From NCBI GenBank assembly GCA_019243595.1, contig JAFAUA010000534.1, positions 1-16,671 of the forward strand: a DNA stretch of 16,671 nt, given 5' to 3'. A program made the translations under genes and the position numbers. Under the pieces are notes generated by a model. The model saw only the letters and a program-made list of their open reading frames with translations, ran no database searches and had not been told where the DNA came from. How positions within the stretch are numbered: the stretch's first letter is position 1; every line of letters starts with the position of its first letter. The stretch comes from Acidimicrobiia bacterium (GTDB lineage Bacteria > Actinomycetota > Acidimicrobiia > Acidimicrobiales > AC-14). Of the stretch, positions 14,687 to 16,003 are shown one piece after another.

Positions 14687-15625
14687 ATGAGTAACGCAGG
14701 GGACGCCATCGCCGAACGGGTCCAAGAGCTGGTCGGCGCGGACGTGAAGAACGTGCGCCGCCTTTCGGCCGGCGCGTCACGGGCCATGTGGGCCGTCGAC
14801 GCCGTGCAGCCCGACGGCTCGGCCGCCGCCCTCATCGTCCGCACGGACCCGCGCGGTGCCGCCCGACCGACCGGGCCCGTTCCCGAGGCGGCGCTCCTGC
14901 GCGCTGCCGCGGAGGCCGGCGTGCCCGTGCCCGCCGTCGTCGCCGAGGACGACGAGCACCTAATTGTCGAGCGCATCGACGGCGAGACCATCCCGCGCAA
15001 GATTTTGCGTGACGACGAGTACGGGGCGGCGCTCCCCAAACTCGCGGGCCAGTGCGGCGAGGCGTTGGCCGCCATCCACTCGATCCCGGTCGACCAGGTC
15101 CCCGGCCTCAACCACGAAGCGGACGCCGTCGCCACGTGGCGGTCGATGCTCGACGGGTTCGGCCAGCCCCATCCGACGTTCGAGCTGGCGCTGCGGTGGC
15201 TGGACGAGCGGCGGCCGCCGACCAGCGGTACGGCGATCGTCCACGGCGACTTCCGCAACGGCAACCTCATCGTCGGGCCCGACGGCCTGCGGGCGGTTCT
15301 CGACTGGGAGCTCGCCCACCTCGGCGATCCCATGGAGGACCTCGGGTGGTTGTGCGTGAAGGCCTGGCGGTTCGGCGTCGACAAGCCCGTCGGCGGCTTC
15401 GGCGAACGCGATGAGCTGTTCTCGTCCTACGAGCGGGCTTCCGGCCGTTCCGTCGACCCCGACGTCGTGCAGTGGTGGGAAGTGCTGGGCACGTTGAAGT
15501 GGGGGATCATGTGTATCTCCCAGGCCTTCACTCATCTGTCGGGGATCGTGCGCTCCGTCGAGCTGGCGACGATCGGACGACGCGTCTGCGAGAACGAGTG
15601 GGACCTCTTGGAGCTCATCGGATGA
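14687..15625 (+). CDS. Phosphotransferase family protein (APH/choline kinase fold)
   Basis: A 312-residue small-molecule kinase of the APH family. Motifs are the N-lobe LSAGASRAMWAVDA (26-39), IVRTDP (50-55), the hinge LIVERIDGETIPRKIL (92-107), the catalytic loop IVHGDFRNGNLIV (184-196; Asp188, Asn193) and the Mg-binding DWELAHLGDPMEDLGWLC (206-223; Asp206). It resembles the ACAD11-type kinases that pair with acyl-CoA dehydrogenases, and the DUF6285 partner downstream fits that. Here, however, it starts 3 nt after cobS and is probably read from the cobalamin operon. GGTGGCGG just upstream is a weak Shine-Dalgarno candidate. The substrate is unknown; a link to corrinoid metabolism is only suggested by position. 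Confidence 0.88.
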   Translation: MSNAGDAIAERVQELVGADVKNVRRLSAGASRAMWAVDAVQPDGSAAALIVRTDPRGAARPTGPVPEAALLRAAAEAGVPVPAVVAEDDEHLIVERIDGETIPRKILRDDEYGAALPKLAGQCGEALAAIHSIPVDQVPGLNHEADAVATWRSMLDGFGQPHPTFELALRWLDERRPPTSGTAIVHGDFRNGNLIVGPDGLRAVLDWELAHLGDPMEDLGWLCVKAWRFGVDKPVGGFGERDELFSSYERASGRSVDPDVVQWWEVLGTLKWGIMCISQAFTHLSGIVRSVELATIGRRVCENEWDLLELIG

Positions 15626-15642
15626 CACCGCAACTGAAATGA
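15622..15642 (+). CDS. Six-codon mini-ORF 1 (MTPQLK), coupled by ATGA on both sides
   Basis: The ATG overlaps the stop of the phosphotransferase gene (ATGA at 15622-15625), and GGAG (15610-15613) lies 8 nt upstream, giving it the best ribosome-binding site at this junction. Its TGA (15640-15642) overlaps the start of mini-ORF 2. The product is too short for a stable protein, so any role would be as a translational relay. Whether it is translated cannot be known from sequence. Confidence 0.4.
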   Translation: MTPQLK

Positions 15643-15655
15643 CGCTGCAACTGAA
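15622..15655 (+). repeat. 17-nt tandem duplication carrying start/stop overlaps
   Basis: ATGACACCGCAACTGAA (15622-15638) is followed immediately by ATGACGCTGCAACTGAA (15639-15655), matching at 15 of 17 positions. The true start of the next gene (ATGACG at 15656) comes directly after. Because 17 is not a multiple of three, each copy shifts frame, yet each ends so that the next ATG overlaps a TGA. Confidence 0.85.
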
Positions 15656-15659
15656 ATGA
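15639..15659 (+). CDS. Six-codon mini-ORF 2 (MTLQLK), coupled by ATGA on both sides
   Basis: This is the duplicated copy of mini-ORF 1. It starts within the ATGA that ends mini-ORF 1, and its own TGA (15657-15659) overlaps the ATG of the DUF6285 gene at 15656. It has no Shine-Dalgarno sequence of its own, so translation would depend on reinitiation. Two of six codons differ between copies: ACA to ACG (silent) and CCG to CTG (Pro to Leu). Confidence 0.4.
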   Translation: MTLQLK

Positions 15660-16003
15660 CGGAGCCGCATGACGTTCCGACTGCTGCGCAGCTCGTGGAG
15701 GCCGTGCGCGAGTTCCTCGAGCGCGACGTCATGGATGCCACCGACGGCCGCGTGCGGTTCCACACCCGCGTCGCCGTGAACGCTCTCTACATGGTCCAGC
15801 GCGAGCTCGAGGCCGGTCCCGCGCAGGCGGCCGCCCACCGAGCCGCGCTCGACCGCCTCGGTGTTGCCGACGAGGCCGCCCTCGCGGCCGCCATACGCAA
15901 CGGCGATTTCGACGATCGTCGTGACGAGGTGCTCGAGGTCCTCAGGGCGACGGTACGGGCCAAGCTCGAGGTGGCGAATCCCCGCTATCTCGGTACGAGC
16001 TAG
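15656..16003 (+). CDS. DUF6285 domain protein
   Basis: A 115-residue soluble, mostly helical protein matching the pattern of DUF6285: PTAAQLVEAVREFLERDVMDATDGRVRFHTRVAVNALYMVQRELEAG (8-54) and the C-terminal DEVLEVLRATVRAKLEVANPRYL (about 90-112). Such proteins are commonly encoded next to APH-type phosphotransferases and acyl-CoA dehydrogenases; their activity is unknown and a partner or regulatory role for the kinase is inferred from that pairing. The ATG at 15656 has no Shine-Dalgarno sequence and no in-frame start upstream before a stop at 15635, so expression appears to depend on reinitiation through the two mini-ORFs. Confidence 0.82.
   Translation: MTEPHDVPTAAQLVEAVREFLERDVMDATDGRVRFHTRVAVNALYMVQRELEAGPAQAAAHRAALDRLGVADEAALAAAIRNGDFDDRRDEVLEVLRATVRAKLEVANPRYLGTS

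Follow-up and report, generated by a model that had tools for sequence, protein, structure and literature searches.

The mechanism of termination-reinitiation, by which translation passes from one gene to the next at overlaps such as ATGA or TGATG, is already known. In three native Escherichia coli pairs, reinitiation fell by 40-80% when the start lay at +14 nt, and at +38 nt it fell by 80-90% in two of them and was abolished in the other; 15 nt of the upstream gene were enough for reinitiation, and ribosomes crossed a 15-nt gap in hyfH-hyfI, with 10-30% de novo initiation (PMC10666635). When the Shine-Dalgarno (SD) sequence was removed, reinitiation in E. coli dropped by 60-90% in three pairs and was lost entirely in one (PMC6728339). 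A review gives milder effects of distance: up to about +40 nt, coupling is weakened 3- to 10-fold but not lost, and in one study it was undiminished from -4 to +25 nt (PMC12548453).

Short ORFs ahead of genes have also been described. In mycobacteria, MIRU repeats insert at start codons, and the ORF of the MIRU takes over the -4 link while the gene behind is little disturbed; the same review mentions a biotechnological use of short-ORF leaders (PMC12548453). A very short ORF lies upstream of txe in axe-txe, where mutation of the minigene acts in cis and reduces translation of the downstream gene; these minigenes have two codons and stand 15 nt ahead of the gene, and deletion of the whole leader raised output by 30% (PMC8708949). 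As regards the proteins, the APH-family kinase LvaA of Pseudomonas putida and its 12-kDa partner LvaB were found bound in a pulldown, and both are required for growth on levulinic acid (PMC6692424).

Here, we analyse a window, i.e., the whole stretch of 16,671 nt (contig C334 of a metagenome-assembled genome of 597 contigs, 81% complete), where two six-codon ORFs in series link an APH-family kinase gene to a DUF6285 gene. Like known termination-reinitiation pairs, these genes show -4 overlaps, are likely partner subunits, and have an SD located within the 3' end of the first gene; unlike ordinary pairs, they would need three successive handovers through two six-codon ORFs. The resemblance to MIRU lies in an inserted sequence whose small ORF assumes the -4 link, and MIRU insertions are the closest natural precedent known to us. 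MIRUs are longer than the 17-bp units of our insert. The leaders of bicistronic designs likewise use a short ORF to bring ribosomes to a coupled downstream start, whereas the relay of the window is natural, lies between two genes, and has two ORFs in series. The minigenes of axe-txe differ from it in forming no -4 chain. As with LvaA-LvaB, an APH kinase (PF01636) adjoins a small partner gene (PF19802, 115 aa), and DUF6285 is mostly fused to, or abuts, a kinase, which recalls that partner pair; we take LvaB to be a DUF6285 protein. Complexes of the LvaA-LvaB type are marked by phosphorylation of 4-hydroxyacyl-CoA. The gene neighbours differ from those of LvaA-LvaB, with CobS upstream and a PAS-domain protein downstream in the window (Pfam). 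The literature that we surveyed on coupling, intercistronic mini-ORFs, and MIRU, where subscription journals were thinly covered, does not describe a serial relay.

Architecture of the junction

The kinase gene (14687..15625; Pfam PF01636 APH, E 1.6e-32) and the DUF6285 gene downstream of it (15656..16003; PF19802, E 2e-28) are on the forward strand, like all the features described here, and are joined by a 34-bp insert (15622..15655) made of two tandem 17-bp copies (15622-15638 and 15639-15655) identical at 15/17 positions. The kinase stop TGA (15623-15625) sits within ATGA (15622-15625), whose ATG opens a candidate six-codon ORF encoding MTPQLK (mini-ORF 1, 15622..15642). The stop of this ORF overlaps the start of a second candidate of six codons, MTLQLK (mini-ORF 2, 15639..15659), which in turn ends on the start of DUF6285. 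Each mini-ORF has a -4 link at either end, and stop and start overlap by -4 at all three ATGA links, as in coupled pairs. The initial annotation had described this architecture, from the kinase stop overlapping an ATG through the two mini-ORFs to the DUF6285 start, and it is exact in the sequence; the 17-nt tandem duplication with 15 of 17 identical positions is likewise borne out. As for the start of DUF6285, the last upstream stop in its frame is at 15635, the ATG at 15656 is the sole ATG, GTG, or TTG from there to the conserved N-terminus, and this N-terminus (MTEPHD) aligns with those of relatives where the start overlaps the kinase stop.

The SD-like GGAG (15610..15613) lies in the 3' end of the kinase, 8 nt before the ATG at 15622. 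Duplex formation with an anti-SD string was computed at -5.6 kcal/mol upstream of 15622, at -3.3 upstream of 15639, and at +0.4 upstream of 15656, in agreement with the earlier reading that this GGAG is the sole good SD and that DUF6285 starts without one. An SD ahead of the reinitiation start is usual, if not obligatory, in coupled pairs; here, it is absent at 15656 and weak at 15639. The value at GGAG equals the one before the GTG of DUF6285 in L002, a locus of the same genus, and we infer that GGAG is the ancestral SD of DUF6285. The motif TANNNT is absent from 15560-15680, so this interval has no -10-like motif beside DUF6285.

The insert has 47% G+C, versus 70% for the window. TRF reports it as an array (15622-15661, period 17) with a score of 66, the top of 16 rows in the window, and the window has a single instance of ATGA-N13-ATGA-N13-ATGA, an arrangement that appeared in 0/200 shuffles. 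Comparable two-copy repeats are not rare: 16 arrays of period 13-40 (about 88% identity, a rounded threshold, the lowest being 11/13) were found in 243,633 bp of the genome's own sequence, 3 of them within the window, with N runs excluded (seven contigs start with N stretches). By our reasoning, the phase of a tandem repeat bearing ATGA needs just a period of 2 mod 3, which is expected about 1 time in 3. Shuffling of the 30-nt interval that separates the kinase stop from the start of DUF6285 produced some relay in 5.7% of trials, and in 13.7% when 3 nt were held fixed on each side. The insert uses codons that are rare in seven ORFs of the window (AAA 1.6, CAA 2.1, and ACA 1.1 per 1000), and the mini-ORF peptides therefore show no sign of selection. 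The 17 nt after copy 2 match copy 2 at 10/17 positions and copy 1 at 9/17; a derivation of the 17-mer from this native start region of DUF6285 is unconvincing, the match being in part a shared ATGAC. A single Rfam match (19.6 against a 50-bit cut-off, E 0.91, on the other strand) was taken as chance, which leaves the insert without a known RNA element.

Distribution and age of the insert

The initial annotation had called for the junction to be compared across relatives, and on this point the double relay is not conserved: the insert occurs in its own genome only. A 22-nt pattern of unit plus link matched in 1/60 genomes (the own genome and 59 relatives), namely the own one, and when up to 3 mismatches were allowed, a search of the 3.7-Mb own genome with a 20-nt pattern retrieved the two copies of this junction and nothing else. 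A dispersed element of the MIRU kind is thus ruled out, with no other copy in the own genome and 0/59 in the others. In G001, of the same genus, the kinase stop overlaps a GTGA start at -4 without the insert (L002, whose junction is identical to that of L033), which indicates that the insert is young; the relatives L004, L007, and L008 have the -4 overlap as well. The other genome of the genus that was searched, G002 (70% complete), gave no DUF6285 match. In the simplest account, the insert postdates the separation from G001 and displaced DUF6285 from its SD, GGAG now serving mini-ORF 1.

Kinase-DUF6285 junctions in general

We identified 177 loci with a hit, of which 28 lack a kinase directly upstream on the same strand (some perhaps cut by the end of a contig or locus) and 2 lack a DUF6285 hit in that BLAST; after merging 20 duplicates of the same junction, 127 distinct junctions remained, a few of them from other phyla. 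All but 11 of the 90 matching places in the class search were fetched. Starts are candidate ATG, GTG, or TTG codons. Genes are fused in 47 of the 127 junctions, 60 have a candidate start at -8, -4, or -1, and 6 have one at 0 to +4; the rest comprise 1 longer out-of-frame overlap and 13 junctions without a start so near. The spacing is thus mostly tight; among same-strand background pairs, a direct start was found in 147/523. On a FastTree tree of 125 of the 127 junctions (two short kinase matches were dropped), the state changes between fused and separate at least 17 times. This recurrence of fusion suggests, at the level of gene arrangement, that kinase and DUF6285 act together in fixed proportion, as 1:1 partners.

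Candidate relays at other junctions

Eight of the 13 junctions without a near start are bridgeable by mini-ORFs linked at -8, -4, or -1, and these fall in 6 lineages (by our own grouping of the 13, where the species of genus g34 count as one). The window has two hops and is the only double relay among the 127 junctions (1/127); single candidate relays recur at the same junction. Three g34 species have TGATG, five codons (MSSPR, MPPPR, or MFLPR), and GTGA; L009 has ATGA, MMAVA, and GTGA; L010 has ATGA, 22 codons, and GTGA; L206 has GTGA, 23 codons, and GTGA; and L208 has TTGA, three codons, and TGATG. L005, L006, L066, L089, and L207 are not bridgeable, L005 being counted as unbridged with no candidate start near. 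The design thus recurs even if the sequence does not, since the one-step relays of the other lineages are unrelated. In g34, the order TGATG, five codons, GTGA is kept in three species in which codons 2-3 differ, and the flanks have 86-91% nucleotide identity over 624 nt. The relay state requires 6 changes on the tree of 125 rows. The nearest row is a direct junction for the window, L009, and L206, an unbridged gap for L010 and L208, and, outside the genus, a fusion for g34.

Relays can arise by chance, because background pairs with gaps of 5-70 nt have a relay in 12/194 cases with the window included, close to the 10.2 expected from shuffles (11/190 without the window). This background was drawn from the own contigs 1-40 (which amount to 243,633 bp including the window and are N-masked in places), together with 600 kb from G015 and 200 kb from G011; its genes come from a home-made caller, and their starts are predicted. 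The 8/13 junctions differ from the 11/190 background pairs with P 1.2e-6, a comparison that counts related rows; we therefore rely on the count by lineage with the window left out, which gives 5/10 versus 11/190 (Fisher P 3.4e-4, in a test framed after the pattern had been noticed). Restricting the comparison to pairs in which the upstream stop is already overlapped by an NTG leaves a modest excess (5/5 lineages versus 11/30, P 0.013). Shuffling the DUF6285 gaps of 12 junctions (L005 omitted) gives 3.2 expected relays versus 8 observed, and most of this expectation comes from L009, L010, and L206, where a relay is likely given their frames and end codons: it was retained in every trial for L009, in 95% for L010, and in 79% for L206. 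As DUF6285 is additionally preceded by purine-rich, SD-like runs in L010 and L206, and L208 relies on a TTG start, these four junctions are weak evidence when taken one by one. As judged from these comparisons of sequence, there is an excess of candidate relays at kinase-DUF6285 junctions, which includes several weak cases.

Origin and role of the insert

We lean towards the view that the insert is a near-neutral duplication, so far specific to this lineage, which was tolerated since the -4 relay preserves the coupling to an SD-less DUF6285. The 34-bp tandem duplication would have entered an otherwise conserved -4 (NTGA) junction; because the unit opens with ATGA and has a length of 2 mod 3, both the stop of the kinase and the start of DUF6285 would have been kept while one handover became three, each at -4. 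After completing the kinase, or after loading at the GGAG that it bears, ribosomes would read the six codons of mini-ORF 1, stop, and restart on mini-ORF 2; they would read its six codons, stop again, and restart on DUF6285, itself devoid of an SD. The relay would thereby maintain a coupling expected to be largely weakened by a plain spacer of 30 nt. We infer both the translation of the mini-ORFs and the survival of coupling. The losses with distance in E. coli lead one to expect that a 30-nt gap devoid of ORFs would weaken coupling strongly, which a -4 chain could avoid, and the losses upon removal of the SD imply that two SD-poor hops may be inefficient. A young duplication like this one may either happen to be self-bridging or have stayed because it is.

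The remark in the initial annotation that a neutral duplication is the simpler cause is upheld. A purely neutral slippage would go further and deny the insert any role: the mini-ORFs would be ignored, and DUF6285 would be reached by scanning over 30 nt or simply made less. This would fit the presence of the insert in one genome only, the similar-sized repeats elsewhere in the own contigs, a phase obtainable by chance, and the rare codons of the insert, and it is favoured by the milder effects of distance in the review (PMC12548453). We nevertheless hold it to be somewhat unlikely, given that relays are commoner at the kinase-DUF6285 junction than at background pairs and that reinitiation was almost gone at +38 nt in the three E. 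coli pairs (PMC10666635). The initial annotation had instead seen a selected, fixed, and lower DUF6285:kinase ratio, i.e., an attenuator tuned by two added reinitiation steps. Every added handover should, on reasoning, cost ribosomes, and the sole good SD now stands ahead of mini-ORF 1; yet the repeated fusion of the two genes points to partners needed at 1:1, and the insert is not conserved, which makes a selected reduction unsupported and, in our judgement, improbable.

Independent initiation of DUF6285, whether from an internal or leaderless transcript or without an SD in an open, A-rich region, has a similarly low probability. Actinobacteria frequently use leaderless starts, and the low G+C content of the insert within a G+C-rich window would suit this scenario, against which stand the lack of an SD before 15656, the absence of a TANNNT motif nearby, and the 113/127 junctions that are fused or have a start at -8, -4, -1, or 0 to +4. 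An artefact of assembly is easier to conceive in a fragmented and incomplete metagenomic genome, but the copies differ at 2/17 positions, the array is 1 kb from the contig end, and both flanking frames are intact, and we consider it very improbable.

Beyond the preferred reading of a tolerated, self-bridging duplication, mini-ORF relays might be a general evolutionary bridge, where selection, after indels, keeps or creates tiny ORFs linked at -4 or -1 between obligately coupled genes. This is a tentative and rather doubtful generalisation; the kinase-DUF6285 junction would show such a bridge in up to six lineages, with the window as a two-step case produced by a phase-preserving duplication. 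If the relay works, the spacing of annotated genes understates coupling, and the gaps at these junctions, which range from 7 to 64 nt, would hide unannotated mini-ORFs that link genes. The system is of interest chiefly for the natural test series offered by the junction, which runs from fused genes through the -4 overlap, one hop, and two hops to an open gap and would allow a direct measurement of what every reinitiation step costs.

Further observations on DUF6285 loci

A search for a solved structure of DUF6285 gave one match, to an unrelated lectin (E 0.25), NCBIfam returned no family for DUF6285 and 13 kinase matches that are all below cut-offs, and our literature search found no paper on DUF6285. 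Examples of fused kinase-DUF6285 genes are L012, L016, and L052. In L015, L087, L090, and L106, there is a candidate start at -4, yet the conserved N-terminus lies 47-80 nt past the kinase stop and is reached via a variable extension; a nearer start is additionally present in L015, L087, and L090. Should such an extension undergo a frameshift, a mini-ORF could remain. The DUF6285 frame of L003, L073, and L075 (genus g34) is open for 444-447 aa from stop to stop; part of this lies upstream, within the kinase but in another frame, and part lies past the domain. In L019 (G011), the kinase frame extends 124 nt beyond the start of the DUF6285 match, in another frame, which represents an unusually long overlap or a frameshift. 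Three DUF6285 matches have one internal stop, TGA in G214:C89:20748-21089 and G282:C9:1144-1476 and TAG in G398:C1:762648-762986. L034, L043, L048, and other Nonomuraea loci have DUF6285 without a kinase directly upstream on the same strand, and in the three named loci a relative of the kinase is found upstream on the opposite strand. On plasmid pTHEOS01 of Thermus oshimai, an acyl-CoA dehydrogenase gene is annotated first, followed by those for the kinase, DUF6285 (with a -8 overlap), and a histidine phosphatase.
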